A stretch of 64,000 nt of DNA, taken from contig JAQMWT010000331.1 in the NCBI GenBank assembly GCA_029834535.1, positions 1 through 64,000 on the forward strand, in the 5' to 3' direction. Under the pieces are notes generated by a model. The model had not been told where the DNA came from and ran no database searches. It saw only the letters and a list, made by a program, of their open reading frames with translations. Below are positions 8,733 through 40,599 of this stretch, one piece after another. Position numbers and translations under genes: made by a program. Source of the stretch: Chrysophaeum taylorii (taxonomy: Eukaryota; Sar; Pelagophyceae; Pelagomonadales; Pelagomonadaceae). Within the stretch, counting starts at the first letter, position 1; every line of letters starts with the position of its first letter.

Positions 8733-10027
8733 TAGTTTAACGACATTTCGGTCAAGCAGTTGCTGGAAATAGACATCATAAAAGCTTGTGCCAAAGACAA
8801 GGTATCTGTGCTGCACGTGGTAGAAGCTTGCTCAATGGTCATGAAATTGGATACATAGGATTTCTTGGTCGCTGCAGCAGTATGTTGGAAGGTAGGGTCC
8901 AACATAAGGGATTTAATATCGGCAACGAGGAGCGAAAGGTGTTTGTACAGAGTGCTGTACATACCGGCAGGCAGAGCATTGCTGAGCATGTCACAGCAAA
9001 GGTCATGGCGTAGAGACAAGAGGAAAGATTCCTGTTGTTTGGTGTGGTTGTTAGCACGAATCAACTCCGGTCGAGTGGGGTAGCGTAATTTCCCGTTGCG
9101 GGGGTCGAGTAAGATGATATTGGCGTACCCTCGGACGGTGGGCAATGGAGCATGCATGGAGTGGATTTTAGAGCCGAGTTTGCGGTCACTTCCACGAAGG
9201 TACCCTATATAGCGACTATGAGATAAGTGGTGGTCTTCCAGAGCAAAATGAGAATCCTTGTAATCGAAAGAGTTGTCGGTGGCCTTGTAGGTAAGGCAGC
9301 CAGGCATCACAAGAGAGCATCTGGACAAGAGTTTTTGTATGGCGGTGCCATAGGTGGCAGCAGAGCCAACTTGGGGAAGGGTTTGGACTATCCACAAGTA
9401 ACCCATAAACGGCTCCAAATATATGGACCTGTCCCGGTCGCGGGGGATGTCGGGAGCAGTGAACGTATACGTGCTTCCAAAAGCGTCGATGGAAGCATGA
9501 TATTTGGTGGTGGCGTTCTCTATGGTGAGGTTGCCATCAGAATGGTGGCCACCAGTTAAGAAGTAGGAGTTGTATGATGTTGATGAGGTTGTAAGTAGTA
9601 GCCTGTGTGGCGGTTGGTTGGTTTCGAAAACGGTTATGTGATAGGACACAGGAGAGGGTTAGTTAGTGTGTAAGCTGGCAAACAAGTTATAGAGGATTGT
9701 AAAAACCTTGACGTGTATAGGGTAGGTAGCATTGGGTAGCGGCTCCATCGAGAAGCGTTTAAAGCTCAACTGATGATAAGTACACTCGGATTGAACAGAG
9801 TGAGTACGTTGCTCGTGAGCCTGTTGTGAGTGAAGGCGAAGCAGTGACATATTGAGGGATTCAAGGTCAGCCATAGTAAGCTGAACAGAACCTGTGCGAG
9901 AGTAAGGTGCAAACGTTTTTGGAACAGGGATATATGGAGGATCGGGGAACACCCGGATCCAGTCTTTGGATACGTGTTTAGGTAGCCAAAGGCGCTTGGG
10001 AATAGCTTGTAGACAAGTGCAGGCCAG

Positions 10028-10350
10028 TAAGTTCACCTAGTCCCAATCTCTAACCCCAGTAAGTTCACCTGGTCCCAGTAAGTTCACCTGGCCAGTAAGT
10101 TCACCTAGTCCAAATCTCTAACCCCAGTAAGTTCGGCGTAAACCCACTCGTGCTCACACCACTCCTTCGAGCTCGTCGCTGTCGCCTCCGCCAATCTAAG
10201 CTGCTTCGATCCGCACACGCCGCTAATCTTTGAGTTTACTCTAAACCCCCCAGTAAGTTCACCTGGTCCCAGTAAGTTCACCTGGTCACTTTATTCACCT
10301 AGTCCAATCTCAAACCCCAGTAAGTTCACCTGGTCCCAGTAAGTTCACCT
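10028..10350. repeat. Minisatellite in H2
   Basis: Units built on CCCAGTAAGTTCACCTGGT, interrupted by the same unique TCGATCCGCACACGCCGCTA block as in H1 and H3. Confidence 0.75.
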
Positions 10351-10379
10351 ACAGTGCGCGTGTAGACGCCGGGAGGGGG

Positions 10380-10960
10380 CTTATCGGTATTGCGCAGCAC
10401 GTGTGGGGTAGGGTGGAGTCGTCGACTCAGAAGAGCATATCCTCGGGGTTGCCGATCGACAGAGAGCCACGTAGAGCTGGACGTGACAGAAGACGGGCTT
10501 CGCCAAGAGGACGCCGACCTCGCGGGGCGTCTGGCCCTGGCTCTTGGTGATCGTTTGGCGTCGGCGGGCCTTAAGGGATACAGGTTGGAGGAGCCTCGGT
10601 GACAACGACACGATCGATCATGTATCTGGTACCGTTGCAGTGGCCGTGCGACGGGCCGAGGTTGCGAAGATTTTAAGCTCGCGATCAAAGTCAGCATGCC
10701 GTTGGTTGTCAGGGAGTTCAAAACTCGACTCTTGAGAGCGAGGCGTTGTCTTCCGACCCAACCTAGTCGACCGAAAAGAACTCCGACGCCTCGTCTCCGG
10801 GAAAAAAAGGCCGCGGTCATGCGCGCGTTGTCAGCATCGACAACATCCTTTCGACGGGGCGTGAGAATGGCGCGCTGAAAGAGCCGCCGCGGGTCGTGGA
10901 AACAGTCTGCGAGGTCGCTGTAGACGGCTTGGAGGATCACTGTCTGGCTCGCGGGCCTAC
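10380..10960 (-). pseudogene. PIF1-like helicase C-terminal fragment (in H2)
   Basis: Minus-strand homology to 55240-55930 of the autonomous Helitron (AVYSDLADCFHDPRRLFQRAILTPR and on to the AQYR end), now in three frames. Same left and right limits of homology as in H1 and H3, so all three come from one deletion ancestor. Confidence 0.8.
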
Positions 10961-11078
10961 CTGATCCTTACCCTAAGTCGAGGGACAAACGCCTGCCCCA
11001 CGCCTCGGCGATGACCCCGACTAGGTCCCGCGTACTTATCTCTGCCCGTCAGGCACATCCATCATACCCCACAAACCC

Positions 11079-11204
11079 ACCCACATCCTTCATGCTCCCC
11101 ACACACACCCCCCTCTTAGCAGTCGACATTTAAAGACAAACACCCACATCCTTCATGCTCCCCACACACACCCCCCTCTTAGCAGTCGACATTTAAAGAC
11201 AAAC
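11079..11204. repeat. Two 63-bp tandem units in H2
   Basis: The block from ACCCACATCC through GTCGACATTTAAAGACAA occurs twice, 63 bp apart and nearly identical. Element H4 has only the last part of the unit (TTTAAATGTCGACTGCTAAGAG near 48865), so the duplication is specific to this derivative. Confidence 0.85.
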
Positions 11205-11913
11205 AGACAGACAAACAAACAAACAGACAAACATCTGTCGATTAGTAGTTAGGATCATCCACGATCTTTAGGAAAGGGCGTGGATGGAGGATGGGCCACG
11301 ACAATAGTTTAATTGGCCCAGTAGAATATCTGCGTGCGATGCATATCCATCTTTCTCTATATTGGTAGTCGCCACCGAGGTAGGTCGGGAGCCTATCAAC
11401 AACATCGACACAGTAATCAAGTGTAGTATGGATAAGGTTGGCCACTGTGATGTGGTCTTGATGACAGTACATATGCGGAGGCGTCATCTCAGCTAGTAGT
11501 ACCAAGGGCTGGAGTAGCTTGATGACAGACAACATGCTGTCGAAAAGAGAGTCTTCCAGCAGGCTGTGTAAGTCTTCTGTCTTATGCTGTTCTAGTAAAT
11601 TCCTGTTTGTGCAGGGAGGAGTGATCTCGATTATATCACAATAGAATGTGCGCCTTTCCTCTGGTGAGATTAGGTGAAGGTGGTTAATAAAGGCGGGAAG
11701 AGATTCAAATAATAATACAGTAGGAAAACGGTTGCGTAACATACGAACAAGCGTATCATCAGACTCAACAACAACTTTTACATTTATGTTTAAGCCTAAG
11801 TCATTAGTGGCTTGAGACAGGAACGCCGGAGTTGACAAACCAGAACAAAGTAACATGACAGAGGGTTTGCGGAGATTGGACTCTTGTAAGAGAAACACTG
11901 GGGGTGAAAGTAG

Positions 11914-17959: not shown

Positions 17960-18378
17960 ATGCGTAGGTGTGTCAGCCCAACTGTGTTGTACGTCTAAAT
18001 CGAATGATCAATTTGCGCCTGATCACGAGTACAATGCGACAATGTGTTTGGCGGTGGTCTACTGTACATATTTGTTGTGTGACGGTATGTGCCCACCAGT
18101 TAAATTGGTTTGTGACCGAGTTGGGTCGGTCACTGGTCATATGCACTCGCATAACCAATAAAATTAAAGTTTTTCCTATACAAGCCGCGGAAACTTGTAT
18201 GGGTTTTTCCTTCCACTCCCCAACAAAAGACTGACTGCTCGAGAACTAATCCATTCTTCAGTCTCAAGTCACCCTGTTTTAAATAGCATGTTGATTTGTT
18301 TGGTCTTGTCAATAAGCCTACGTTTAAAAATCGCGTACTGTACATAGAACCCGCACTTGAGAAACCCTTCATTATTAT
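17960..18378 (+). other. 5' leader of element C
   Basis: About 420 bp without a conserved frame. It includes a stem-loop ATACAAG-9 nt-CTTGTAT at 18178-18200 followed by GGGTTTTTCC. No sequence match to the family 1 leader was seen. Confidence 0.6.
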
Positions 18379-19905
18379 GTGTCGAATCTGTCTATCAATC
18401 CTCTAACCTATCCCTTAATAGGTCACAATCATGTCAAAACAAAAATAATATCTACCACCGATATCTACAAACAAGAACAAATCCTCGTTGATAAGATTAA
18501 CGCAGGATTGCGTTTCCAAGATAATTCAACTAAGGTGAGCTTGCAAATTGAAACGCTTCGCAGGCATATGACAAGTCCATATGTGGACGCGTTATTCTGC
18601 TTTGATTCATGTGAAGCTTACACTCGGAATGCTCCGGAATATAATCAAATCCTTGAACAAGAAGCTGATATCATCTTCGCTCAATGGAAAGCTGAACAAG
18701 TTAACGATTTAAACTTACATGATGAAGGTGCCCTGCCCGAACATTTAAAGACTTGGCACGTCAACTCTTCCCATCAACTAACGGTTGATGCCCGTAATAG
18801 ACTTGAACGACTTTACTACCAAGAGTCGTACAATCTTGTCCGTCCTGAATTAGATGAGGATGTCAAAAATGTCCTTACTTTATTAGATACCCGATTTCCT
18901 AGATCAACTGTGTATGATTCATCTTTAACTAACATATCCTTTACAGGCCTCTCTAATGCCGATTGGATCAAACACTGCGAAGCTTATGCTGTTTTTTGTA
19001 CATATTCTTTAACCTCGAGTCCCAGGAAAAGCCCGCTGTCGCTATGTGGCCTCAACTAAAGAAAAATTTATGCAATCCCTGCACATCCCAATAAATTACG
19101 TGCTGTTGTGCTTTTAGCCTATCATTACTATGAGACAGTGTATTGTACAGATGTAACTGAGCTTAAATCTCAGTTTAATCGAATGTCTCTAAATGTTAAT
19201 TGGTATACCCATGTATTTGTCGAACAACTCCTTGTCTTTCAATCTCAGGCAAAGCAATTAAATAATGATGAAGCATCAATCCAATTTACTAACTCCATAA
19301 TCACTCTTAAAGCTCACGAGGAGATCTACCGTCTATATGCTAATCCCTCGGATCACGAGCGCTATTCTCAATCTTTATTGGAATGGTGTGAACTCTACGA
19401 GACACGCTCTGGTAACAACTCGAGTCACGATCCCGAATGGTTAAAGCTAGTTGATCCTAACGACGTTCGTCCACTATTGGAATTCTTGTTAAAGATATAT
19501 AATGAGACAAAGTTTTCTTCTAACCGACGCTTGGATAAACCCGCTTCCTCGATCCCTTACATCCCTGGTACTACCGCTACCAAGCCACCTAAGGTATTAT
19601 TGATGGATACTATTCATCAATCCCACGACTCTCTAAACAACGCTTAGTCGTTGTTAGCCACTGTAGCTGGACAGTCTGGCTTCAACGCTCGTAAGCTTCG
19701 TAATGCAAAAGATAAAGCATCGACAATCTCACCCCGTGACACGTCGTACTATCGTTCACCTTCAAATTATAACGTCAAAGGTACCAGCTTCGATCGTCCT
19801 GTCTACTCATCTTCCTCTAACCGTAATGCACGCTCTAATATGTCTCTTATGGATCGGGCTACTTATCAAGACTTATCAAGTTGATAGTCTTCGCCACCTG
19901 TTTGG
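18379..19905 (+). pseudogene. Gag of element C, frameshifted
   Basis: Collinear with family 1 gag: KVSLQIETLRRHM, LFCFDSCEAYTR, NVNWYTHVFVEQLL and the FNARKLRN, SYYRSP, NARSNMSLMDR series match the corresponding blocks of A and B. Frame breaks near 19030 and 19100, a TAG at 19645, and a small insertion near 19870. No CCHC knuckle is visible, as in family 1. The true start is unclear; the best candidate frame runs through 18430. Confidence 0.8.
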
Positions 19906-21177
19906 TAAATTGCAGGAAGCGAATCCCAATCCCTCCACCGACTCTAAAATGGTACAGGAGGAAATGAAAAGCTTATTGAGTACCCTCTGGACACCCGCTT
20001 CTCAAGCTTCGACACAGTCCTTAGATCCTGGTGAAGCCACCCAAGTTCATCTCTACTTATCTCGAGTTGATATTATGTCCAATACCATATCGAACCTCTT
20101 GGAAGGCGACAAGGAATCTCTTGTTTCAGAAGAAAAGTATCAAACTGAAACATCTGCTCCTGAAGCGTCCCCCAGTGATGCGGAGCAGAGGGGGACTGCT
20201 GATACAGAGAAAGTGTTCCACACTTTTCTGTCCATTAAAGATGATGAAATCGATAACATCCCTCAGCCGCTATTGCAGCACATAAATGCTAAAGCTCAGA
20301 ATGCTATCGTTCGTCGTCAAGCTCGGGAAACTTCCTCGCACTCTGAGCTCCCCAGTAATTTAACCAATGAAGATAATGAAGATGGTACAGATCCCCCTGT
20401 GTTGCTACCAAAATTAAATACTGGTTTTACACTCGTCGTTGTGCCTTCCGAACAAACGCAAAGTTTCATGACACAGTACGTGTTTGGTCAAAGCTCAACA
20501 CATGCCTGTTATGCAACAATGCTTAAACTGTACAACGAGTACAATTTGCCGCTAATGACTACGCCAGGATATGCTGACACATGTGCTTCTCAACATGTAA
20601 TTAACTTTAAACGTTATGCTGATCCTATCCACATCGTAAAGCTACCCGAGTCCTTATCACCTGCTATCCAGACTGCTACGGATACGCAGAGAATCACACA
20701 TGCTATGATTATAAGGACCGTCATTCCCGCTCTCCCAAAGCATCCAAATGTGGGATATGTAAAGCTAGACGTTGCGCTTTTCTACCCAAGCAAAACGACC
20801 ATAACGATCCCGATCTGCACATCATCAGTATGACTCAATGGGGAGAAGATAAACTTGGTATACACCTTTATGGAGTTGAATTTAAAGGACAATCATCTAT
20901 CCAGAGTAAAATTGATGATAATGTCAAGATTACTTTGTTTAGACTCAGTAACCTGTTGCCAACTCTACCAATTTACTCGCTACAACAAGCAAAAGCGCGT
21001 AAAATGGAACTTCGCTCACTACAGTTCAGACTATGTGCTTTTAATGAACAACGCGAAATGCTCAAACTATATTCCACCCTCATGGAACGAGTAATTTACG
21101 TCCCATGGCTTAAAACCATCCTGGAGTCAATGCATTCGCAGCTGCCTTACATACGCAAGCATTTCCCACCTCCTGTA
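19906..21177 (+). pseudogene. Protease region of element C
   Basis: Aligned with the family 1 protease by YADTCASQHVI (DTC where FDSCAT stands in family 1), AIQTATDTQRITHAMI and HPNVGYVKLDVALF. A frame change near 20810 joins it to the next open part (20830-21180), which runs straight to the UGA. The Gly-to-Cys change in the D(S/T)G active site is shared by both families. A CAGAGGGGGA tract occurs at 20186. Confidence 0.75.
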
Positions 21178-21180
21178 TGA
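21178..21180 (+). promoter_or_regulatory. In-frame UGA between protease and methyltransferase, element C
   Basis: CCT CCT GTA TGA CGC AAG: the stop is followed in the same frame by the open methyltransferase frame. The first ATG after it lies inside motif I (LLCSGMSTP), too late to make a whole domain by fresh initiation. Confidence 0.65.
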
Positions 21181-23200
21181 CGCAAGGTTACAACACGTTT
21201 GCTCCATACAGTAACTTCATCTACTAGCCCACGAATACCTACAGTAACTTTACTTTGCTCTGGGATGTCCACTCCTGCATTCTTGGCTTGCGCTTCTAAT
21301 GACTTGCAAATCAACATCAACGTTAAAGTTCTTGTTGAGAGCGACGACAATATCACGCACATGCTACGAAGACGTTTTGGTAATTCCATCGAAGTTTTCC
21401 CATCCTTACCTAAGTTTTTGACATATCTCCATCGAGCATCGGACGTTGAACGTGCACGATATTACACTGACATAGTGGAATTGACATCACCATGCACAAA
21501 TCGCAACATAATCAATGGGAGATCCATTTCCACCTTCGAGCGCGATATGGATGATTCCTTGTTTCCAAGTGCTCTAAGTGTACTTGAGCTTTTAAAGCCG
21601 CTTGTTCTCTTCATGGAAATGACACCACCACACTCCGCATCGTACGAAGACCATATACGAGTTGCTAATCTCATCTTCTCAACGATGCACTATACGGTGG
21701 ACATATGTGACCGATTTCCATGCTATCTATGTGGAGATTATCAAGCCAGAGAAAGATGGATCCTCGTCGCACGCAAATATAACACCGGCCCTCTTGATCT
21801 GCTTTCATGGCCTAATAAACGAGTCACTTCCTTTCTGGATATTGCAGACCACGCTAACTCCATCAGTCGCAAGTTAATAGTCGACGAACCTTGGACGCAG
21901 GTCTTTCCTGACATACCATTCGTGTCCACACCTAAAACCTACAATATGTTTAGTCGTACAGGATCCGTGCGCTTAACTGTGACTGAGCTTGAAACCTTAA
22001 CTATGCTGTTCCTTCGTCTGCACTCTAATAAAACAGTCGAACATCCCAGTCAAGATGAAATGGAGGGCATTTCTAACTTTCGCCTGGGATTCTTGACTAA
22101 TTCAAGAAAACCACTTGCTTGCATGAGATCCCCTATTGAACTCAAAGCTTTTGTGCTCCTCTATAATATTATGGGACGATTATTCCCTAAATCCATCACA
22201 TTACCTGTGTCCTTTCGTATTACAACTATCGAATCTAACCAACCATCTCACAGGTTATTCTTAAATAAATCCTCTACTTCATCCATCATTTACATCACTG
22301 GTGGAAGACACACAGGCGGAGACATAACAGTTTCTAACTCTTCTTCTAAATACCAGGCACACATAAATGCTTTTGGCGAAACCTACGCCCTTTTAACACA
22401 CGATGCCGGAATCGATAAGACTGCTTCTCTCGAACCAGTTACCGGTTTTCTTTGGCTTTGCCAAGCATACCATCATAATAATGAAAATCAAGACACGCGT
22501 CGTCTAGTACAAGCACTGGTTTCCTATACTTCTCCTGTATTTCACGATTCTTTTGTCTTCTACCCTCAGGAAAATCGTCTTGAATTTATCGACAAAATAT
22601 TTGCTTTAAGTGACATGCATTTGTCCCAAAGCAGATATTTGGGCTTTATAACATCAAGCGATAGGAAGATGGGTGCCAAAGTTCACTCTATATATACTCC
22701 CACTCCTACCATTCGTGGATTTGCTAATATGCTCGTGTACGATCCACGACTCGATCGCATTCGACACTACTCAACTCGCGAATTGGCACGCGCCAATAAC
22801 TTCACAGCGTACCAAATCAATTTTCTTTTGTCTTTGTCCCCTGACCTATGCTGTGATATCATCGCAAATGCTATTCCAGCTGGAACATATCATACAATTT
22901 ATAAACATTTGTGTCAGCTTGTTTATGACTTGCGTATATTAACGCTATCACCATCGTTTGACCCTGATCACGCTCCTCTAACCAAAAACTATAGGTCAAC
23001 CTTCTTCACAAATATATTCCCAACAGATACATCCTTAACATTACACCAGAGTTCCATTACAATGTTCTACATCTCCAATAAAAAACTCTTATGTTGTGAT
23101 ACTATCACTTCTAACCACGAACTTCCTTCTTTTCATACTGATTCAGTAGCTCATGCTTTCCTCTCTAACATCTTATCCGCAGATATATCATCTCCTACTA
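21181..23200 (+). CDS. C5-cytosine DNA methyltransferase domain, element C (intact frame)
   Basis: Open frame continuing to 23517. Counting from codon 21199: motif I TLLCSGMSTPAF (17-28), acidic motif II VLVESDD (44-50), motif IV ELTSPCTNRN with the presumed catalytic Cys at 99 (codon 21493-21495), motif VI FMEMTPP with Glu 140, motif VIII YQARERWILVAR with Q182, R184 and R186, then about 330 residues of variable region taken as target recognition, motif IX STRELARANNF (525-535), motif X ANAIPAGTYH (556-565). Order and spacing fit C5-methyltransferases, with an enlarged recognition region. ENV of motif VI is replaced by MEM, and SPC replaces PPC. Cytosine C5 methylation is the expected reaction; activity and target are unknown. 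Confidence 0.85.
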
Positions 23201-25250
23201 AAGAAAAACAAATACCCCTTATAACGCCAAGACAGCTCCATGAGAAGCATGCGCCCTTCGATAAGAAAGTCCATGCCAGGGGCACCCTTGCATTTCGAGA
23301 TGCGCAACAACGAGCTACCAATTTTCACAACATTCACCATTCCAGTGATTCTCAAGCCATAAAAGCTGTTCAGGTTATTGCCAGTCCTGGACACCACCCA
23401 TCTGACGTACCCTACCGTGAGTTCTGTGTGGATTGTACGATTCACAAAAAAAAGCTTTCCTCATCCACACCACCTTATCAAGCAACCATCATTCGAAAAA
23501 ATTTTTCAACCTGGTGAAGCTTGGGCATGTGACGGTGGTTACGTCTCCGTGCTCTCGGAATGGGGATCCTTTCGACATATCATTGTTTTCAAGTGTCTCA
23601 TTTCTAAATTTCTGTTAGTGTACTTTTGTCGTAGCACTAACTCCAGCGAATTTTGTAACGCCCTTGAGTTTGTCCGTAATTTTTGTTCTACTTATGTTCA
23701 TGTACAACTAAAACAAATTTATTGTGATTCCTTTAAACTCTATTTATCCCAGCATGTAACAACCCCCTTCCGTGTGGAACATGGTATTAATATGTCCGCG
23801 TCCCCCCCTTACTTACATGTCTTTAATCATGAAGTCGAAGCCGCTGTTGGTCACATAGCCACTGCCGCGTCTACACGACTCAGGCATATGCTTAATGTAT
23901 CCTATAAAGGTCACCCCCTAACAGATCCGGCACCACACTACCCGTGGGCTGTTATACATGCCATCCAATCGTATAATCTCCTCCCTAACGTTTCCCTCGA
24001 ACGTATTTATAATAAAGTCCTAAGCCCCCAACAAGTTTTGTTAGACCAATGTAATGTTCCCCAACAAGACTACCTCAAACCTTTTGGTTCTGTTTGTTAT
24101 CTGCATTTGGAACCTAACGAATTTCATAAATATGAACCCCGATGTCGTCCCTACATCTACTTATGTGGTGCTAACGTTATAAACCCTTTAATAACACCCC
24201 ATGTTAATCATTTAGCCGATGTTGTCCTTAATCCTGAAAACGGTCAAGTCCGTGTTTCCTCTAAACTGACTTTCCCCCATCTTATTTCTAAATCTCCTCC
24301 TGATTATGAACAGCATCCACCTCCCGCACCTTCACCCGACATTCCCTTCTCTGTTCACAGCACCCCCAATGATGCGGCGCAGAGGGGGAATGCTATGCCT
24401 ACCGACACTGACCATGAGAGGGGGACTCCTTCTTCTCATCTCCATGCTCCCTCTCCCGCTCCCGCATGTGCTCCAGCTGCTCCTGCACCCGCTACTTCCA
24501 CCACCACACCTACATCTGAAGTGTCTCCCGACACTCTGCCACTTTTACCATCTTATCGGTCTCTCTATTCCCAGGATGTCCTCCGTCTCACCCGTGGTCC
24601 TCATCACCCTCAGCCTCGTCGCAAAACCAATCTCAAGGATGTTCTTACTCGTATTGCTTCGCCTACTGTTGCCGCTTATAAACAAGCCGGTGGTACGCTT
24701 GCCGACTTCAAGTATGACCTCTCCAAGCAGTACATAACATTCTGCGACCCCACCCTCCACTCCCTTCACCTCGCTCATGGCATCCACTGGACGGCTATAC
24801 CTCCAGAGGGGGAATTTACACCATCCCTTCATCACCATGTGCACCAAGCGATTTCACAGTCCTCTTCAGTTATGTGTCATAGGAGCCATAGCCACCCATC
24901 GCCTGATGCTCCCCATGTTCACTTCTACGACGACGTCAACCTTGCAGACTTTCACCTTCCTCAAGCTCTCGTTCATTTAATTTCTGAACATGCTCACGCC
25001 TTTCAAGTTCCTCCCGCTCAATATGCTTATGCTTTGTTCACGCCCCACTCCATTTTGGATCATAATGACGCTTCTTATGGTGCTTCCGAGCCTCATCTCT
25101 CCGCCATCGAAGACTATATCACCGTGCAATCGCATTACATTGAAGCCCACCTTGGTGATGCTCCTCTACTAGTCGTTCAACTCATCGAAGATCCCGATCA
25201 CGCTCATCTGCCCGATAATGTCGCTTCTTACGCAATTACTCATCTGACGA
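23201..25250 (+). pseudogene. Integrase and proline-rich linker, element C
   Basis: FHNIHH...CVDC zinc site, then WACDGGY, IYCDSFKLYLSQ and FNHEVEAAVGH carrying the D, D and E residues. A one-base slip in a run of A near 23450 splits it; from there it stays open to RT. The linker (24290-24560) is rich in Pro and Ser and contains three AGAGGGGGA tracts. Confidence 0.85.
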
Positions 25251-26308
25251 CGACTCATGACCCCAGCACGGTTGGTTCGGACGAATACAAGATTCAAGCC
25301 AAAGATATCAAAATTGATGAATATGAGTTGAACTGCCTCAAAGGTCTCTCAGACGCTGATCGCAAAGCTTATGTTGCTGCCATCTCCAAAGAGATTTTTG
25401 ACATTGTTAAGTTTGGCTGCTTTAAACTAGCGCTGCCAATGGTCAACTCAAAGCCTATTGACACCCGTCTCGTCCTACGTATAAAAACCAACGCTGCTGG
25501 TCAGTACATTAAACATAAAGCACGCCTGGTACTACGAGGATTCTTAGCCTCTCTGGGCACCGATTTCTTCAACACATTCAGCCCTATGGCACAGCTTACC
25601 GGCATCCGTTGTGTTTTGGCGCTAGCAGCTCATCTGCGACTTCCCGTCTATCATGTCGACGTCCCTAACGCTTTTGTTCAAGCTCCCATCGATTCTCATG
25701 TCTATGTCAAACTGCCACAAGGCATTTACCTTCTCGATCCCGAAGATACTAAATACCAAGGCCGCCGTCTCCCAAAGCTACTTAAATCTCTATGGATTGC
25801 GTCAGAGCCCTGCCCTTTGGAATCAAACCATAAACGGCTTCTTTGATTCATTAGGCTACACACGATTTCGAACAGACACATGCATTTACGCTAAAGTCCA
25901 AGCTGACGCTACATTTCTAATTTGCACGCTCTCAGTAGACGACGTCGTCATTACTTGTACTTCGGAAACTCTACGTCGTGAGTTCCAGCAAGCCCTGAAA
26001 AGGAATACTCAGTCGACACCTTCGAGGAAGTCCATACTCTCCTAGGCATGCGCATAACGCGTACAACTGATGGCTCTATATCACTGGACTGTCAGGCTAA
26101 ACTTGACGCATTGTTCGAAGAGTACCCCATTTTAATGCAGTTACGTCCCACTTCCACACCGATGTCACCATCAACCACGTATAAAACTGGAGAGCCATCT
26201 TCTGATATGGACAAGTTTGTTCTTCATACCTTCTCCACCTTACTCGGCAAACTTACTTTTGTCCAATTAGCTTGTCGCCCTGATTTATCCCAAAGCCTTA
26301 GTCGTTGC
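25251..26308 (+). pseudogene. Reverse transcriptase, element C, 3'-truncated
   Basis: RIKTNAAGQYIKHKARL, DFFNTFSPMAQ, HVDVPNAFVQ and LSVDDVVI show copia RT. Frameshifts near 25790 and 26040. The frame ends at CRPDLSQSLSRCC where it is fused to the LTR of B, so the RNase H domain is absent. Confidence 0.85.
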
Positions 26309-26619
26309 TGCAGAGAAATCTGCTGCCTCTTACCCTTATCCGTCCGTTGAGAACGTGATCTCTTCCTTACCCTTCTTCTTCCTTTCTACATCAAGTAGTC
26401 CTCTGATTTGTGCCTACGCTCATCATCATGGTCTAGCGCGTCCCGAGGTATGTAGCACTATACACTTTACCTTTCTCGTGTAGTTCTAGATGCCGCCTGT
26501 CGTGTTCTGAGGATATAGGGAACATACCTTTCATTCCCCGAATTAACTACTTCCAGACGTTCACGATGAGACGGGATGGTTTCCCAGGTGACTTACCACT
26601 GCTTGCTAAATGCTCTGCA
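26309..26619 (+). repeat. 5' LTR of copia element B
   Basis: 311 bp, starts TGCAGAGAAATCTGC and ends GCTCTGCA. Followed directly by the PBS. Matches the 3' LTR at 37944 apart from small differences and the retroposon inserted there. Confidence 0.92.
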
Positions 26620-26633
26620 GGTTATGGGCCCAG
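26620..26633 (+). promoter_or_regulatory. Primer-binding site of B
   Basis: GGTTATGGGCCCAG directly after the LTR; complementary to the initiator tRNA-Met anticodon arm. Confidence 0.85.
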
Positions 26634-27138
26634 GCGGGTCCCTGAGAAACCATGTGTCAACATGCACGTAACCTATGGGTATTGGGTCGTTACCGCGCCG
26701 ACCTAGCCTCGCCATGTGACACGCTTGTAAATACAACGCTATTACCATTGGGCTGTATATAATATCTTTTTGCACACGTGATCGTGTAACCTTGTGTGCA
26801 CCTGTTCATAGCATCGTATTGTCATGTCAATGTTGATGTGTGTGTAATTGGCTAACCTGTACTCTTGCACACATGTTATGGAATATTTTGGGTACGTCCA
26901 CTCGTACATTCCATGGCAATGCACTTAACAAGCTCCTTGAGAGCACCAAAACTAACCAGCTGCCTGAGTGACTACGCTTAGCGACACTACTCTGGACTCA
27001 CAGCTTGCACAGTCGTCAAATAGACACATTTTCCATCGAAAACGATGAGTGTACATAGACACCGATAGACAGACCCCCTTAGAATGTCTAGACAGTGTCA
27101 ACTGCGTGACTGAACCCACAGGTTCCCCGTCAACTGCT
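26634..27138 (+). other. 5' leader of element B
   Basis: About 505 bp without a conserved open frame. It contains the stem TGCACAC (26771-26777) / GTGTGCA (26794-26800), also present in A. Short frames here differ between copies. Confidence 0.75.
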
Positions 27139-28804
27139 ATGGCAGAACACGCAGCACGAGCCGCACCCAAGGCGATCACAGGTGCGGATATATTGAAGCT
27201 CGAAGCTCCTGTAGTTGAGTTTCTTAACGAAGGAAATCGATTTCAGCTTCAGAACCGCAAGGTATCCTTGCAAATCAAGCATATCAAGCAATTACTACGG
27301 TCCAGTCATGCCGATGCTTTCCTCGAGTACGACTCGTACGAAGCATATACTCGGTCATGCAAGGACTACGAGATCCTCCGGAATCAAATTCTCGATCGCG
27401 TTTTCCTGGAATGGAAGACCGATAGGGCTGCTGATCTCCGTTTAGCTGTTGATGAATTGCCCCCTGAGTATCAGGAATGGCATTTCACCAACGAAGCTTT
27501 CCCCCACTTACCTGATGCAGAAGTAGCTCAGCTAGCTACTGTCTGTTACGACTATGAAGTCAAGGCATTACGTCCTGAAATCAATGCTCGTTTCTTAGAA
27601 GAGGAACGAATCTTAAATCGCGCGCACCCGAAGGCACTAGCTTTCGACACCCGTGTTCGTGCCCCGGTTACCATGTTTTCGTTAACTGCAGCTGACTGGC
27701 ACACTTACCAGAACACGTACGCTACATTCTTGCATACTTACTTCAATCTTGAAAGTGTTGGAAAACCGGCACTTGCGGCCTGGCCCGCCATCAATGAGGT
27801 ATACAACAAAAGTTATTTACCCAACAAGGCTCGAGCTATTATGCTCATCGCCTTTAGTCACTACGAGTCTGTTACGACTACTGATGTGTCTTATTTGAAA
27901 CAGCAATTTAACTCTGTTGTTTATAATCCTAACTGGTATGTCCATGTATTTATCGAAGCTGTCCTAGCATTTAGGCAAATCTCTTACCAACTTAACCAGG
28001 AAGAGACTGACCTTCAATTCGACTTTGGCACTCTTTGTAGAAAAATCTATGAAGAGATACATCGGCATTATGCCGATAATACCAGCAACAACCGTTACGA
28101 TCGTGGTTGGGTAGATTGGTGTTATATGTACGAAACCCGATCTTCATCTCGGCCTGTGCCAGAAGCTGAACGATTGTGTCACCCTACCAACCCTAGCTAC
28201 ATTTTAGAATACGCATTAGACTTTACAATGTAGTATCAAATGGGTCGAACAAAGACGCTTATAACGCCCTGTTTCTTGGCAACCCTATGTCGAAGGTTTA
28301 TCATCTCAACCAAAGCCAAAGTTACTACTTACACACACTTTGGACTCATCAGAGACTCAAACTGCTAACTTCGGGCTCAAAAACTTCTCACGACTTACAT
28401 AACAACGAAATGAAAGATAATGCCAAAATATGCATACCACCTTTTCTTCGTCAACGAGTCGTCGAATGATGACGTCACCAAGAAAACCGGACAGTCCCAT
28501 GACCGTCCAATTTACCCCCGCACTTTTGACAGGTCCTCTCGGTCTAACATGAAATTATTAGATCGAACAAACCACACCTTAAACACCCTGCGAGAACAGT
28601 GTAGCGAACTCACGAAGCATGTGACAGATAATGATACCACGGCTCAGCTACAACAGAATATCAACAAGTTATTTGAGACCTATTACAATCAGCTGACATT
28701 CTGTCAACGACATCTACTGAGGACAACAGTAGTTTACTTCGTCTAAACGAACAGCTCATGTTTGCAGAAGACATCATTTATGATGTAGACGTTCATCTAT
28801 CCTC
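27139..28804 (+). pseudogene. Gag of element B
   Basis: Starts at ATG 27139 (MAEHAARAAPKAITG), the same start as in A (15081) and E (63989). The first 360 codons are intact and helical. A one-base loss near 28220 shifts the frame (codons LYNVV in A become FTM stop), and 28240-28480 is locally scrambled before the frame resumes at TKKTGQSHDRPIYP. No zinc knuckle. It ends at the gag/PR border repeat at 28805. Confidence 0.85.
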
Positions 28805-28825
28805 GACCGAAAAGTCGTTAAACTA
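28805..28825 (+). other. 21-nt border repeat, gag/protease junction (B)
   Basis: Encodes TEKSLNY. Copy 1 of five in element B. The core GTCGTTAAACTA is preceded by GACCG. The same sequence stands at this place in A (12976-12956) and E (62095-62075). Confidence 0.85.
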
Positions 28826-29863
28826 CGTGGAGCCACAACACCATACTGTCGTTACTGCTCCCACCCCAACAACAACTCCTCCTACTACAAACACACAGGG
28901 TAATCCTTCCAATACTGTGTCTAACCTCTTTACCGCTTCCGCCATCTCGGCTTTACCACCAGCATTATTGTCCTCGCTATCTTCACAGGTCCAATCTGCC
29001 CTCAACCTACCACCACAAGCCGAAACCAAAAGGGATGCCGATCATACCTCGCTATCGTCATTTGACGAAAAGCACGGCATGGCTGATGAGGCTGACGAAC
29101 CATCACCACCTGTTCAACCGATCATTATTCCAACGAATCTGTTATTGCTGAAGAACTTCTTTACAGCCAGCCTCTCCACTACTTGCCCACATTCGGAAAA
29201 CGCCTTCCTCACCAACTACATGAAGGTAAACAGTGTCCCTCCACATTGCTCTTTTCTATATTTTGACTCTTGTGCTACCATCTCATTGATGTCCACCTAC
29301 GATTTCGCAATACCCAATCATATAATTCCATTGGACTCCAAATACGCGCCGATTGTTATTCAGACGGCAACAGGACAACAACGGGCATCACACATGATGT
29401 TAACACGCAACATCGTTATTCCCCTACCAGATCATCCACAAGTTGGCTATGTTAAGATTGACTTCGCTTTATGTCTTCAGCCAGTGCATGACCGACATCT
29501 CGCTGTCCTGAGTATGCTCGAGTGGAACCAGACCAACCTAACCACCGTGTTCAATGATCGAGCTGAGCCAAAGCTCAGCGCTGTCACGAGCCGCATAGAC
29601 AAAGATGTACGTATACCCATACACTATGTAGCAGCTAATTTACCCGCTCTCCCTTGTCTCACTTACAACATCGCGCGCGACAAGCGGCTGGAACTTCGCT
29701 CCCTTGCATTTCCCCTCAAGCGATACCATGAAAACAGGGATCTACTGGCATACTACAACTACCTACTCCAACGAGTTTTACCAGATCGCCGTGGATTCGC
29801 CCTTTGGTTCTCAATCTTCGGAAACAGAACAAATTTGTTCAGCAAAATACGCAGCCATTAAAG
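28826..29863 (+). pseudogene. Aspartic protease region of element B
   Basis: YFDSCATISLMST is the active-site loop with Cys in place of Gly; then PIVIQTATGQQ and HPQVGYVKIDFALCLQ as the usual beta-strand series. The region is open to about 29790, where one G is lost (CGCCGTGG, with CGGCCGTGG in E), so the frame shifts just before the UGA. It should act as a dimer in the particle; the substitution may reduce or alter activity. Confidence 0.75.
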
Positions 29864-29866
29864 TGA
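29864..29866 (+). promoter_or_regulatory. In-frame UGA (UGA-CUA) between protease and methyltransferase, element B
   Basis: CCA TTA AAG TGA CTA CTC, in the frame of the methyltransferase and, before the one-base loss upstream, in the frame of the protease. Confidence 0.65.
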
Positions 29867-31783
29867 CTACTCTCACGCCCAGTGTTTCTCTCACAAGAGT
29901 CCAATCTCCGCAAACCCTCTGTCATGTTACTTTGTTCTGGTTTGTCAACTCCGGCGTTCCTGTCTCAAGCCACTAATGACTTAGGCTTAAATATCAATGT
30001 AAAAGTTGTTGTTGAGTCTGATGATACGCTTGTTCGTATGTTACGCCACCGTTTTCCTACTGTACTATTATTTGAATCTCTCCCCGCCTTTATTAACCAT
30101 CTTCACCTAATCTCACCAGAGGAAAGGCGCACATTCTATTGTGATATAATTGAGATCACTCCTCCCTGCACAAACAGGAATTTACTAAAACAGCAAAAGA
30201 CAGAAGACTTACACAGCCTGCTGGACGACTCTTTTCGACAGCATGTTGTCTGTCATCAAGCTACTCCAGCCCTTGGTACTACTGGCTGAGATGACGCCTC
30301 CGCATAAGTACTGTCATCAAGACCACATCACAGTGGCCAACCTTATCCATACTACACTTGATTACTGTGTCGATGTTGTTGATAGGTTCCCGACCTACCT
30401 CTGTGGCGACTACCAATCTAGAGAAAGATGGATATGCATCGCACGCAGATATTCTACTGGACCAATTAAACTATCATCGTGGCCCATCCTCCATCCACGC
30501 CCCTTCCTAAAGATCGTGGATGATCTACAAGCTATTCCCAAGCGCCTTTGGCTACCTAACCACATATCCAAAGACTGGATCCGGGTGTTCCCCGATCCTC
30601 CATATATCCCCGTTCCTAAAACGTTTGCACCTTACTCTCGCACAGGTTATGTTCAGCTTACTATGGCTGACCTTGAATCCCTCAATATGTTACTGCTTCG
30701 CCTTCACTCACAACAGGCTCACGAGCAACGTACTCACTCTGTTCAATCCGAGTGTACTTATCATCCGTTGTGCTTTAAACGCTCCTCTATGGTGCCATTA
30801 CCCAATGCAACACATCCTATACACGTCAAGATTTTTACAATCCTCTATAACGTGTTTGCCAGCTTACATACTAACTCGCCCACTCCTGTGTCCTATTACA
30901 TACCCGTTTTCGAAACTAACCAACCGTCACACAGGTTATTACTTACAACCTCATCAACATCACACAACTCCTACTTCTTAACTGGTGGCCACCATTCCGA
31001 CGGCAACCTCACGATAGAGAACGCCACCACCAAAAATCCAACTCCCATCAACGCCTTTGGAGGCACGTATACGTTCACTGCTTCCGACATCCCCCGCGAC
31101 CGGGACAGGTCCATATATCTGGAGCCGTTTATGGGTTACTTGTGGATAGTCCAAGCCCTTCCCCAAGTTGGCTCCGCTGCCACCTATGGCACCGCCATAC
31201 AAAAGCTCTTGTCCAGATGCTCTCTTGTGATGCCTGGCTGCCTTACCTACAAGGCCACCGACAACTCTTTCGATTACAAGGATTATCTTTTTGCTCTGGA
31301 AGATCACCACTTATCTCATAGTCGCTATATAGGGTACCTTCGTGGAAGTGACCGCAAACTCGGCTCTAAAATCCACTCAATGCTTGCTCCATTGCCAACC
31401 GTCCGAGGGTATGCCAATATTATTTTACTCGACCCTCGCAACGGGAAATTACGCTACCCCACTCGACCGGAGTTGATTCGTGCTAACAACCACACCAAAC
31501 AACAGGAATCCTTCCTCTTGTCTCTACGCCATGATCTTTGCTGTGATATGCTCAGCAATGCTCTGCCTGCCGGTACGTACAGCACTCTGTACAAGCACCT
31601 TTCGCTCATCGTCGCCGATATTAAATCCCTTATGTTGGACCCTACCTTCCAACATACTGCTGCCGTGACGAAGAAATCCTATGTGTCCAATTTCATGACC
31701 GTTGACCAAGCTTCCACCACGTGCAGCACAGATACCTTGTCTTTGGCACAATCTTTTATGATGTCTATTTCCAGCAACTGCTT
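29867..31783 (+). pseudogene. C5-cytosine DNA methyltransferase domain, element B
   Basis: Motif I MLLCSGLSTPAF, motif IV ITPPCTNRN with catalytic Cys codon 30167-30169, motif VI LLAEMTPPH, motif VIII YQSRERWICIAR, motif IX PTRPELIRANN and motif X SNALPAGTYS, in canonical order. A 2-base loss near 30235 splits it; from 30243 the frame is open through to the integrase. It lies between the UGA and the border repeat at 31784, so it would be freed as a separate protein if that repeat is a cleavage site. An ATG stands just before motif I (SVMLLCSG), a possible alternative start. Confidence 0.85.
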
Positions 31784-31804: not shown

Positions 31805-33951
31805 TATATCTTCGTCCTACGAAGATACTCTCGCTACTCGTGATAATGAGGATGCACCTCCAAGTGACCCTGCTGTGCACCAGGATGACGACGCACCGCC
31901 TTCCCCTGCCTTAGACACCGAACTCAAGTTCGATGTTCGGCGCAAACGGCACATTCCCGCTCATCCAATTCCTCGTAAGTCCCTCGCACACGGATCCACC
32001 GAATATCTCAATGCCAAAGAACGTGCTAATCGCTTTCACCGGGTGCATCACTGCCCCGACAACGTCGCTGCCAAGGCCCCCAACGTACTTGCTCGCCCTG
32101 GATTCTCTGCTTCTGACATACCATATCGCGACTTATGCACCGACTGCATCGCACACAACAAGCGCCACCCGCACAAGCATTTCAATGCGACCAAGCCTTC
32201 TTTTGAGCAAACTCACAAAGCCGGCGAAGTCTGGGCGTGCGACGGCGGCTATGTGACCATCCCATCCGAATGGGGAGGCTTCACACATATCATCGTCTTC
32301 AAGGAACTCATTTCGAAATTTCTCTTGGTGTACTTTACACGCACCACCAACGCCACGGAGTTCACTCAAGCTCTGGATTTTGTGTATGACTTCTGTCGTA
32401 CACAACTCAACGTGCACATGCGCACCCTCTACTCCGATGCATTCAAGCCTTACTTTAGCCAGCACATTACCTCCCCGTACCGCGTCGATAAGGGCATTCA
32501 ACTCATTGCCTTCCCGCCGTACATGCACCACTTTAACTTTGAAGTTGAGTCTGCCATCGGTTTCATCGCCTCCGCCTCCTCAACTCGCCTTCGTTCTCTC
32601 CTTAATGCTCACTATCGTGGCGCCAAGATCGTGGAACCCGCTATCATGTTCCCATGGGCGGTGATACACACCGTTCAAAGCTATAACCTTCTCCCGAACG
32701 CCACGCTCGAGCGCATTCATCATGCTATTCTGAGTCCGCAACAGCTACTCTACAACCAACTCAGCACTCCCCAACACGATATGCTCAAGATTTTTGGCGC
32801 TGAATGTTACCTCCTATTGGAGCCCCATGAACACCACAAGTGGGAACCGTGCCGCCGCAAATATCTGTATCTCTGTTGCGCCAACGCGCAAAACCCGCTC
32901 GTCTCCCCACGCGTCGACCATCTCGCTGACGTCGTCCTCAACCCTGAAAACGGACAAATTCGTGTTTCGTCCAAGCTGCAATTCCTCTACATGTTGCAGC
33001 ATCCTACTCCTGATCCTGAACTAGCTCCTCCGCCTCACGCTCCTCCGCGCCTTTCTCGCTCACACCCCACACCACTATCCAAGACCATGTCATTCAGAGG
33101 GGGACAAGGACTCCTCATCCTCAGAGGGGGCACTCCCCACCTCCTTCAGCTCCTCCTTCTTCGTCCCCTACTCCGGCCTCTTCTCCCTCTTCTGACGCTA
33201 CCGCCGACGAATCTGGCTCTATGTCACCGCCGCCCTTGCTTCCTTCTTACAAAGACCTTTTTGCACAAGATGACCTCATTCTTGTCCCAGGTTCCAAACA
33301 GCCTAACACTCGCAAGGCCACTTCTATGAAAACTATCCGAGCCCGGTTACAAGCGTCTACTATTGGTGCTTACAAAGCCGCTGGTGGCAAGCTCGCCGAT
33401 TTCCGCTGGGATCTTCGCCACCACTTTCTTACGTTCAAGTCTCCCGCCCTCTCCGCCCTTCATCTCCGTGGTGGTATCCTCTGGTCTGCTATCTGCTCAG
33501 AGGGGGAACATGCGTTGTTAGCTCGTCTTCTTCTCCCGTTGCGCACTGACTTACTTGCCCGCTACCCGCACGTCGATGGTTACTTCGCCCACGCCAAGTG
33601 CGCATCCAGCATCCCAGCTGCAACCTTTTTAACTGCTGATGGTTCACCTACGTGCCCTATTCCTCAGCCCCTTTTATCTGCGTTCACTGAACACGCTGCT
33701 GCCTTCGGCACTTCTTCCTTACAATATGCACTTACGTACCTGGCGCCGACCAGCTTTATTGATCACAACTCATCCGAGTTTGGCGCTACTTCTGCATCTC
33801 TGGCTGACTTGGAGGAATACCTTCTGGTCTCTACAGAGTTTATCACCCAGGTCTTACGTACCGACCCTACTATCCATATCCAACTGGAATCTGCCCCTAC
33901 TACTCCTACTGACGCTGTTTCCGCTTATCCCGAAGTTGCGCACACTGCCTC
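31805..33951 (+). pseudogene. Integrase and proline-rich linker, element B
   Basis: Zinc site FHRVHH...CTDC, catalytic Asp codons at 32241 (WACDGGY) and 32436 (YSDAFKPYFSQ), Glu in NFEVESAIGF about 35 residues later. The C-terminal part ends in a Pro/Ser-rich linker; a frameshift near 33040 leads to a different frame up to 33221, where the RT frame is already open. It handles cDNA insertion. Three CAGAGGGGG tracts lie in the linker and just after it. Confidence 0.87.
33095..33131 (+). promoter_or_regulatory. Internal polypurine tracts in element B (two of three)
   Basis: CAGAGGGGGA at 33095-33104 and CAGAGGGGGC at 33122-33131; a third is at 33498-33507. They resemble the terminal polypurine tract (GAGGGGG) and recur at comparable places in family 2. 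Candidate central plus-strand priming sites. Confidence 0.45.
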
Positions 33952-33972
33952 GACCGCAACGTCGCTAAACTA
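33952..33972 (+). other. 21-nt border repeat, integrase/RT junction (B)
   Basis: Encodes TATSLNY and is followed by NSPAIVGPDEY; copy 3 of five. Same place in A (6202-6182), D (43210-43190) and E (56222-56202). Confidence 0.85.
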
Positions 33973-35842
33973 TAATTCACCAGCCATTGTTGGTCCTGAC
34001 GAATATAAGGTCCAAGAAGCGGACGTTTCCATTGACGAATATAAACTTAAGTGCCTCCACGGTTTGTCGCCTGAAAACAGGCACGCCTACCTCAAGGCCA
34101 TCGCCAAGGAACTCCACGACATTATCCGCTTTGGCTGCTTCAAACTTTCCTTACCCGACGGTGTCTCTCGTCCTATTGACAGCAAGATGGTGCTGAAGAT
34201 TAAAACAGACTCTGCAGGCAAATACGTTAAGCACAAGGCTCGCCTCGTACTACGTGGCTTCCTAGCATCTCTTGGCGCCGATTTCTTTGGTACCTTCAGC
34301 CCCATGGCCACCATGACCGCAATCCGGGTACTACTAGCTATTGCAGCATACAAGCAATTGCCTGTCTACCATGCAGACGTCCCGAACGCCTTCGTTCAGT
34401 CTGACATCGATGCCAATGTCTATGTTCAGTTACCAGACGGCATCAAGCTTATCGACCCCGATGACGCTAAGTACAAGGGCCGACGTCTACCGAAACTGCT
34501 GAAGTCACTTTATGGACTTCGGCAATCACCATCCCTTTGGAACAAAGAGATAGACGGCTTCTTCCGTAGCCTTGGTTACAAACGCCTGCATTCGGACTCT
34601 TGCCTATATGCTCGAGTATCCGCACATGCTAAGTTCGTCGTATGCAGTCTGTCTGTAGACGACATTGTTATTGTGTCCAATGACGACCCTCTTCGTACTG
34701 AATTACAGGATGCCCTCCACAAACGGTATGCTGTAGAGCAGTTTGAACCTGTCCATACCCTCCTAGGCATGCGTGTGTGTCGCACATCTGACGGCTCCAT
34801 TTCTCTGGATGTGCAAGCCAAGCTGGATGAACTCTTCGCTGATCACCCAGTCTTGCAGCAACTGACCCCGCTTAAATATCCTATGTCATCGTCCTTCAAG
34901 TATAAAGATGGCACTCCCAGCTCTGAAACAGAGTTGTACATCAATTCGCACTTTGCCACCCTCCTTGGCAAGCTGGTGTTCATGCAAGTTGCCTGCAGAC
35001 CTGACTTCTCGCAAGCCTTGGGCAGATGTTCGCGTGGTATGCATGCACCCACGTATGTTCACGTCCAAATGCTAGAGCATTTGCTTCGCTACCTCAAGAA
35101 GCCGGAAAACCGCTCACTTCGCCTCTGGTTCCATCCTAAAGGTAATGCCATTGAAGCTCACCTTCGCACTGTCTCCGCTAATCGAATTGATCTATCCACT
35201 GTGGTCGACTACCAACCGCAGGATGTATCTACTGGACAGTTTGACCCCTTAGTTGCCATGGTTGACGCTGACAATGCCCCTTCCTTAGCACAGGAAGATA
35301 GGAAATCTACCACCGGGTTTGTCTTCTATCTTTTCAACTGCCTTATTGGTTGGAAAAGCAAACTTCAACCGATTGTCTCCTGCTCAACTCACGAAGCTGA
35401 GTTGATTGCCCTCAGTATTTGTGCTGATGAAGCTGTTTGGCTACGCAAGCTGCTGTTGGAACTCTCCTTTGTCGTCAACCCCACCTTCTACGTCAACAAT
35501 GCTAATGGTGAGAACACCGCTGACCCTGTTGACTTCGATGACAATGACAACCCAATTGCTGAAGATATGCGCTTCATCAGAAGCCTACCTCTCTTGTCTG
35601 ACAATGCTGCCGCTGTTCACACCTCTAATAACCCAGATGGGTCCTCTCGATCCAAGGCACTGTCGACCAGATGGTTTAAAATCCGTGAGTACATCTCGCT
35701 ACAGAAAATACGAGTCCATCATGTTCCCGGCAAGCTGAACGTGGCGGATGGTTTTACAAAGCCACTTGCTGCTGAGTTCTCCACTTTTCGTTCTCTACTC
35801 GGTATGCATCATGCCTCTCACGACAATCCTTTACAGGATTGA
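33973..35842 (+). CDS. Copia reverse transcriptase - RNase H (element B)
   Basis: Open to the TGA at 35840-35842. RT: KHKARLVLRGFLASLG, TFSPMATMTAIRVLLA, HADVPNAFVQ, SLYGLRQSPSLWN, LSVDDIVI. RNase H: MVDADNAPS, KSTTGFVFYLFN, STHEAELIALS, LLSDNAAAVH and the ADGFTKPL terminus. It is the best preserved pol part in the window, nearly identical to A and D. The catalytic RT box is SVDD rather than YVDD in both families. Confidence 0.92.
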
Positions 35843-35935: not shown

Positions 35936-37803
35936 ATGTCTTTTCTTGACACTCCCGTGGCCGTGGCATCTCTCCAGTCGTTCGAAGGACAATTCCACGC
36001 TCGCTCTCCACGGCCGAGCCTTCTCCCAAGTTGTCGCAAAAGCGACAACCCATAACCACTGTCACTCCTGCTACCTCCCAGGCTGCTACTGTTTCACCGA
36101 CACCAGCTGAACCTGTTTTACTACAACCCCTAACACTCCAGGATAGCCTCAAGATGGATTTTGCCCTGCTTACAAGCGAGGAATCTTTCTCCTTGAGAAC
36201 TTCCGTACTCCTGCTACGCCCTTTCTCTCTTCTGTTATGCGAGCGGAAATCTCTACGGCACTCAACTCGATATATGAATCTGCTGACTCTTTACTGTTTG
36301 TGGAACTAACGACATTCATATCCATGCGCCTACCCATTACTACATTTTGGGAAGCTGCTCCTGCTATTACTTCTATTGGCTGCTACAGAGGCCCCAAACG
36401 TGAACGTTTCATCCTGTCATCCTACTGTACGCAGTGCCTCAACGATTTGGGGCAGCCTACATTTCTTACTTCCACCACATATAATTCGAAGTCACAAGCA
36501 CCTAGTGAACTCCCCACTGAAGTGCTGAGTCACCTCAACACAGATGACCACAAGAAGAATGGTCACATCCCCATCTCAACTATCACCACTAACATTTGTT
36601 GTGCTTGTCACAACACCGATCAGGCGCCCATACAACCTAACGTATGTGCACGTAATGCTACTTCCTTCCAACCCTCCTGTGATGGGTGCTCAGCTGGTCA
36701 TATACGCGCAACCATCATACGCACGTATCATTTGCCAAAGGAGCTACATACTCTCTTGACTAGCAGTCTAACGCAACATTCGTCACTTGCTCATTTAGTC
36801 TTATCAGTAACCGATGCAGCCACAGACTCCACTACTCAACTACCATTGGCACTGGATCTTCGGCTTATTACTCAGATGCACCTGGAGCATCTTAACTTTC
36901 TTGTAACGCTCGAGCGAACACAAGCTCGTAAAACTCAGGCTATGTTCAAGCCCACCAAATACCACCATGTGATTCATACTGTTATCCGATCGCGTGTACA
37001 ACATCTTAACAACTACGCATCATCCTCTGATGATACAGAACCGCTATCACTCCGGGATGTAATGTTCGGCCACACTTATGTTCAGGCAGAACATTAAGGC
37101 TTCCTGCACCCCTTTTTTAACGTTGACCGAAACGTCGTTAAACTACTCACACTCCACGCTAGACGCTACTCTGGAGATATCTTCGCCACCGTTACCTACG
37201 CCTTCTGCTTCGCTTGCTGATTCCGACTTCTTGTGCCAACAAGTCGACCAACTCCAGGAAACTCTTCGAATCTATATTACCGAGGCTGCCATTGCTTCAA
37301 TCACCTCCCTGGAGAACCGGCTCTTCCCTCCTACAGCCAACACCCACGTGTTACTTATACACTGTACAAGATCACAGAGCTGTTGTCTCGCTTAATACTC
37401 ACCGCTCATGATCAACATGCTACCAACTACTCCTCCCCGGACGATCACCTCCTTCATCTACGTGACAAGTTGCTCTCATGCTTCAGAGCATTCCGTCCGC
37501 TCTCATGTGAATCTGAAGACTCTTCTATCGTTCTTCGTTCGCCAAGTCCAACCTTTTTTTTGGAAAACCAACTGGACACCTTTCAACTAGATTCTCTATC
37601 GCCATCCATACTGAATGCTCTACTTGCACTCACCCTTCTCTTGGCACCACATCGTTCAGCTATTGGTGTTCACCACCTTACAGCAGAAGCTGACGATGAT
37701 TAATAATCCTAACACACTGTCTGTTGTATCTGTGTTTCTTAATGTTCTGTTCAAAAGGGTCAAATCGACTCTCAGCTCCACCAAGTCCAAGTCCAAGTCC
37801 TAA
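35936..37803 (+). pseudogene. ORF3 of element B, frameshifted
   Basis: Starts near ATG 35936 as judged from D. The middle part 36237-37097 is open and holds CTQC, CCACHN, VCARN and CDGC cysteine motifs. A stop (TAA at 37095) replaces a Gln codon of A', the SLNY repeat follows at 37125, and the coiled-coil half is in shifted frames with a deletion of part of the heptads. It ends at TAA 37801. Unknown family; see A' and D. Confidence 0.78.
37125..37145 (+). other. 21-nt border repeat inside ORF3 (B)
   Basis: Encodes TETSLNY; copy 5 of five. It separates the cysteine-rich half of ORF3 from the coiled-coil half. Same place in A' (16816-16796) and, diverged, in A (3317-3297). Confidence 0.82.
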
Positions 37804-37933
37804 GACCCTTCTATACTCTTGATGCTTCGTATGTGACCTCTGTGACCATCAAGACTGTATTCCTTCCTTTTTTTTTCTTCATCATCATCTTTCTCAAGAG
37901 ATGCTCTACAGTCGCACCTTGCGCTTAAGACAT

Positions 37934-38535: not shown

Positions 38536-38559
38536 GTGGGGAGTGAGTAGTTTAAGGAC

Positions 38560-40598: not shown

Positions 40599-40599
40599 T

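Follow-up and report, generated by a model that had tools for sequence, protein, structure and literature searches.

A predicted C5-cytosine methyltransferase domain behind a conserved UGA in Copia retrotransposons of the pelagophyte Chrysophaeum taylorii

Copia retrotransposons of Chrysophaeum taylorii carry in their Pol polyprotein a conserved domain with a predicted C5-methyltransferase (MTase) fold, which follows a conserved UGA and evolves under purifying selection. We are confident that the Copia Pol of this alga has acquired a C5-cytosine DNA methyltransferase, inserted between the protease and the integrase. Cytosine methylation usually targets transposons, and here a Copia element itself may write the silencing mark of its host. 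The analysis started from 64,000 nucleotides of contig JAQMWT010000331.1 (hereafter the window) and from a preliminary description of the methyltransferase motifs made from the sequence alone; that description did not include the conserved UGA (21178-21180), the number of copies or another MTase-bearing family elsewhere in the genome.

Predicted methyltransferase domain in two Copia families

A tblastn search of the window with copy C recovered all five domain copies that had been described, and motifs supported the assignments: A (8754..11913, minus strand), B (29867..31783, plus), C (21181..22968, plus, end approximate), D (45379..47294, minus) and E (58703..61032, minus). The query matched itself over 21199-23514. 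Copy A was found in two pieces (11871-11248 and 9973-8837) separated by a repeat insertion of about 1.2 kb at approximately 10013-11253, copy B in two pieces (29888-30232 and 30228-32165) with one frameshift near 30230, copy D in two pieces (47256-45868 and 45875-45462) with a frameshift near 45870, and copy E in three (60990-59605, 59791-59465 and 59068-58862) with stops and frameshifts. Across these pieces, protein identity to copy C was 39-56%. At the DNA level, A, B, D and E group in one family, their coding parts sharing about 91-98% of positions, while C represents another. The same domain was confirmed in all five copies, with the correction that frameshifts, stops and nested repeats have broken four of them (A, B, D and E), so that an uninterrupted frame over the full domain exists in C alone.

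In copy C, a motif search located motifs I (LLCSG, 21250-21264), IV (PCTNRN, 21490-21507), VI (EMTPP, 21616-21630), VIII (QARERW, 21742-21759) and X (NAIPAGTY, 22867-22890) on the plus strand, at the positions given in the preliminary description, and motif IX (STRELARANN, codons 525-534) was assigned by eye. The order I, IV, VI, VIII, IX, X is thus present together with the Cys, Glu and Arg residues. Each motif was found in 27 to 29 of 30 C-family loci, counting any frame and including the window copy (catalytic Cys motif, 29; EMTP, 27; QxRERW, 27; NAIPAGTY, 29). In our alignment of the domain (A2), Glu140 and Arg186 are invariant and Cys99 is nearly so.

Direct profile searches, which had been proposed as a check, found no C5-MTase: PF00145 did not match copies B, C or D even at an E-value of 1, and an NCBIfam scan of copies C and D at the same threshold gave no C5-MTase and no TIGR00675, indicating that such methylases can escape Pfam. 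A profile built from B and C alone matched Dnmt2 only at motifs IX-X (E 0.056, probability 1%), and against PDB sequences it gave just two chance matches (E 0.9 and 1.2). Among about 8000 candidate public proteins, none matched the C-family polyprotein at E 0.01, and viral contigs held no relative of alignment A2 or of L004, a member of the sister family described below. In contrast to these empty searches, the structure comparison, also proposed earlier, agreed with the motifs, as the predicted fold of 21235-21804 is that of a C5-type class I MTase. All 50 structural matches listed for this model, which covers the first half of the domain at a pLDDT of 68 and rests on an alignment to which the sister family contributes 6 of the 18 rows, have this fold. 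A model of the whole domain (610 residues) reached a pLDDT of 36 and was discarded. The empty profile searches correspond in part to what the preliminary description had named as a refutation; we kept the C5-MTase assignment despite them because the fold evidence overrides them. It is further supported by a profile-profile alignment with Dnmt2, using a domain alignment that includes the sister family, and by the sister family itself, a recognised MTase family that scores above the Pfam cut-off and with which the domain aligns collinearly.

This sister family (L003-L008 and further PF00145 matches in the genome) is retroelement-like, and its C5-MTase, which Pfam does recognise, comes after a DGGA protease-type motif. 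Its member L004 matches PF00145 at 7e-10, passing the Pfam cut-off, and the open frames around the PF00145 matches of contigs C96 and C314 measure 1952 and 1868 codons. The best candidates in the genome gave 57 PF00145 matches, none of them on the contig of the window. A direct comparison of the B/C-only profile with the sister family was not significant, either by hhalign (E 0.03, probability 1.7%) or by HMM scores in the two directions (E about 0.3, ranking fourth and first among 500 shuffles). Searches with a single sister protein against PDB (E 0.1), with the sister-family polyprotein against about 8000 candidate public proteins (E 0.01) and with L004 against prokaryote genomes yielded no relative. 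One host locus, L002, has a 2086-codon open frame that matches PF00145 (E 8e-18) and, weakly, RING (E 0.23); we take it to be DNMT5-like, and through it the alga may keep CG methylation itself.

Both Copia families are numerous. As a query, copy C matched at least 62 stretches (58 scored out of 1834 candidates) and copy D at least 84 (81 scored out of 1538); both counts are lower bounds, and a few of the stretches belong together as fragments of a single copy. Of the 62 C matches, 35 are at least 94% identical to C in protein, and stop-free frames within a match extend up to 1464 codons (on contig C428, 86% identical). The family is only partly young: its median pairwise dS is 0.22, although the LTR ends of B, described below, are closely similar. 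No stop occurs in 753 codons in 17 of the 30 loci examined, and from these 17 (the other 13 being dropped), using pairs with dS above 0.05, we obtained median dN/dS values of 0.077 for residues 1-200, 0.091 for 200-480 and 0.082 for 480-590, compared with 0.131 for the linker together with the zinc region of the integrase. As a protein, the methylase is constrained no less strictly than this integrase part.

A conserved UGA ahead of the methylase

In copy C the domain is directly preceded by an in-frame UGA (UGA CGC, 21178..21180, plus strand), located at the junction of protease and methylase. All 30 C-family loci have TGA followed by C at this place, seven codons ahead of the methylase match, or nine in L018, whose match begins further downstream. 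The TGA is in frame in 29 of them, and the exception, L016, has an adjacent indel. Upstream, about 500 codons are free of any further stop in six of the 30 loci, although in L027 this frame runs partly through a neighbouring B-family stretch; in the three of these that were inspected, L015, L022 and L030, the stop-free frame contains a protease-like motif. By parsimony, the three TGA sites have undergone no change, as against a mean of 1.56 changes at 354 fourfold sites. Since a third of the fourfold sites are likewise unchanged, conservation within the C family, taken alone, carries moderate weight. At the corresponding position of the other family, A, B and E read TGA CTA, and D reads CGT. 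In B, the UGA CUA lies directly before the methylase at 29864..29866 (plus strand), with a 1-base deletion upstream, and in E at 61033..61035 (minus strand), where it terminates an upstream ORF of 540 codons. UGA CUA is a known readthrough context.

A conserved in-frame stop, a weak context and frames open on both sides were thus all found, and the sequences suggest that the UGA in the two Copia families is likely a readthrough site. RNA structure after the UGA did not exceed that of shuffled sequences in the five stretches tested (z -1.6 to 0.74). We also considered an overlapping stop-start (AUGA), which was rejected by eye, as the frame of the AUG differs from that of the methylase.

Relation to known elements and possible roles

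Retrotransposons with methyltransferases, mentioned in the preliminary description, do exist, but in the classes LINE, DIRS and Gypsy rather than Copia: SymbioLINE-Dnmt, SymbioDIRS-Dnmt3 and KnitGypsy-Dnmt3 are described in PMC5890265, so the kind is known. According to the same paper, SymbioDIRS-Dnmt3 methylates CG de novo in yeast, self-methylation of cDNA has been proposed, and the Copia elements of Symbiodinium have no DNMT. The closest parallel is KnitGypsy-Dnmt3 of Klebsormidium nitens, also an LTR retrotransposon whose Pol polyprotein includes a C5-MTase domain and also under purifying selection (Ka/Ks below 0.2, compared with about 0.08 for the Chrysophaeum domain; PMC5890265). However, it is a Gypsy element of the green lineage with a Dnmt3-type methylase and a DIRS-like repeat layout, and its description there mentions no UGA, whereas the Chrysophaeum element is a stramenopile Copia with a methylase that Pfam misses in the window. 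SymbioDIRS-Dnmt3 and SymbioLINE-Dnmt resemble our case in that hundreds of methylase-bearing retrotransposons occupy one algal genome, but they are DIRS and LINE elements (PMC5890265). One sentence in PMC12344493 names LTR Copia, along with DIRS, as a carrier of DNMT3 and cites the 2018 paper; this may be a slip, since the cited paper describes Gypsy, and, unlike our case, the mention involves no pelagophyte.

Two further systems share single features. The retrotransposon Tca2 of Candida albicans has a UGA between gag and pol that needs bypassing, but it has no methylase and its UGA follows gag, not the protease; by the account in PMC2194720, the Tca2 junction was not sufficient by itself for readthrough in yeast. 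Sola1-1_Ec32 of Ectocarpus is an algal transposable element with a DNA methyltransferase, encoded as a ParB-like plus methyltransferase protein, but the parts of PMC12477816 that treat it present a DNA transposon whose enzyme is predicted to make N4-methylcytosine or N6-methyladenine, not 5-methylcytosine. In the open-licence literature we noticed no further report of a C5-MTase in a retrotransposon and none that treats Chrysophaeum together with a retrotransposon; PMC9998398, which touches on a pelagophyte, methyltransferase and transposable elements, describes no such elements in its relevant parts. As far as could be searched, the class, the host group, the methylase type and the UGA arrangement are new. 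Methylase-bearing elements being known from two algal lineages (PMC5890265), a Copia case in a stramenopile makes the phenomenon look recurrent rather than a curiosity.

How might the enzyme serve the element? Gag-protease would be translated first, and it is fairly probable, judging from the sequence, that a minority of translations pass the conserved UGA and yield Gag-PR-MTase-IN-RT-RH. As part of such a product, the methylase would be packaged into the virus-like particle alongside RT and integrase, and the UGA would thus provide a specific, testable route of the enzyme into the replication particle. Tentatively, the packaged methylase may act on the double-stranded cDNA of its own element, either ahead of integration or during it, and a new copy would then enter the genome already marked like host DNA. 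Taken as a whole, an explanation that joins a Copia Pol methylase, UGA bypass, packaging and methylation of own cDNA is in our judgement evenly balanced between right and wrong, and is the best we can offer. With more reserve, we picture a Copia lineage with the methylase as a regular Pol enzyme, packaged by UGA readthrough, whose cDNA would be methylated in the particle and integrate with the mark in place. In this picture the domain would sit at the same position in two Copia families, B and C, which are about 45% identical, and probably in one more family of retroelements, and a long life in the element would have let the methylase diverge beyond profile recognition. The CpG figures were 0.81-1.03 for the B and C elements and their parts and 1.00-1.10 for sister loci, compared with 1.26 and 1.46 for two host loci and 1.31 for the non-Copia part of the window, but this depletion is mild and base composition differs too, so we rejected it as proof of self-methylation and regard it as weak evidence.

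Action mainly on host DNA in trans, around insertions or genome-wide, with the element shaping or exploiting a DNMT5-like host methylation, appears unlikely. The high copy number and a host locus such as L002 that could maintain the marks would suit it, and effects on the host epigenome have been proposed for Symbiodinium (PMC5890265), but a domain in Pol behind a UGA is expected to be scarce and packaged. It is rather improbable that the domain keeps the fold without catalysis and helps Pol to bind DNA or RNA or to hold its structure: the motif counts across the 30 loci and a dN/dS of about 0.08 argue for a working enzyme, even though Pfam is blind to the domain and its motifs (LLCSG, and EMTPP instead of ENV) lie far from what we take to be the C5-MTase consensus. 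Nor does the fold decide between DNA and RNA, because DNA enzymes and tRNA enzymes both occur among the structures closest to the model. Methylation of RNA, for instance of the element RNA or the tRNA primer, would fit with element B, which seems to be primed from an initiator tRNA fragment, and with the activity of Dnmt2-type C5-MTases on tRNA; RNA methylation was also raised for SymbioLINE-Dnmt in PMC5890265. We nevertheless consider RNA a quite improbable substrate. Finally, the lack of a direct profile match could mean that the domain is no methyltransferase and that its motifs arose by chance, which is hardly credible in view of the fold matches, the collinear alignment with a recognised family and the conservation over 30 loci. 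Whether methylation by the enzyme would serve self-marking, hiding or a change of host methylation can be tested in one alga, since the elements are numerous in a genome of 71 Mb.

Element structure and neighbouring repeats

The Copia class given in the preliminary description was borne out. RVT_2 matched at 1e-19 in C, 5e-42 in B and 4e-42 in D and is preceded by SH3_retrovirus and a weak rve match (E 0.002-0.004, under the curated cut-off), which places integrase upstream of RT and therefore the elements in Ty1/Copia, with the order gag, protease, methylase domain, integrase, RT.

Element C extends on the plus strand from 17545, where similarity to both the C242 copy (L039) and the C114 copy (L040) begins, to 26309, where, as judged from L039, it is cut off. 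It comprises a gag-like frame with one internal stop (18361..19644, gag by position only), a gag-protease ORF with a D-T-C-A protease-like motif assigned by eye (19703..20833), the methylase domain, and, in the same frame and assigned by eye, a linker and integrase zinc-binding region (22969..23517). The open frame stops at 23517, and RT is read in a different one; integrase core, SH3-like region and RT start span 23378..25846 (rve 0.0043 and SH3_retrovirus 3e-5, both under cut-off; RVT_2 1e-19). An LTR pair was found neither for element C, whose 3' end is cut, nor in 13.9 kb around its C242 relative. The C242 copy was also considered as a version lacking a 700-base intron, but its coordinates make a deletion between 8-base repeats inside RT more likely.

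LTRs with TG..CA ends were found in elements A and B. Element B, on the plus strand, has a 5' LTR remnant (26309..26619), a primer binding site (26620..26635), a gag-like ORF by position (27049..28233), a protease ORF with an F-D-S-C-A motif seen by eye (28758..29861), an RT region (33221..35842) and a 3' LTR, TGTACGCAGTG..TGTTCTGCA, at 36426..38535, which a repeat interrupts at 38165-38433. Its LTR ends are 96-98% alike over about 320 bases. The primer binding site is complementary to the anticodon arm of what we take to be the initiator Met-tRNA sequence, a mode of priming as in copia and Ty5; the same stretch recurs behind the end of an LTR near 1693, and element A does not have it.

Several other repeats were observed in the window. 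An interspersed repeat of about 1 kb, rich in CCCAGTAAGTTCACCTGGT units, occurs at 302-1191, 10013-11253 and 39880-40909, and at 3521-4588 of L039; it inserts into Copia elements, and the coordinates suggest a 7-base duplication. Another repeat, of about 365 bp, is present in at least seven places (1226-1507, 8222-8590, 14595-14957, 38165-38435, 40986-41348, 48931-49218 and 56574-56937), mostly 94-98% alike and inserted into Copia copies, with coordinates at 8222-8590 that suggest a 13-base duplication. Neighbouring Copia ends abut almost to the base at 17544/17545 and at 38528-38538, which hints at an insertion preference for element ends. A GC-rich stretch encodes a Helitron_like_N protein (52209-54122, plus strand, E 5e-57), near which lies a 69-base tandem array at 50710-51313.
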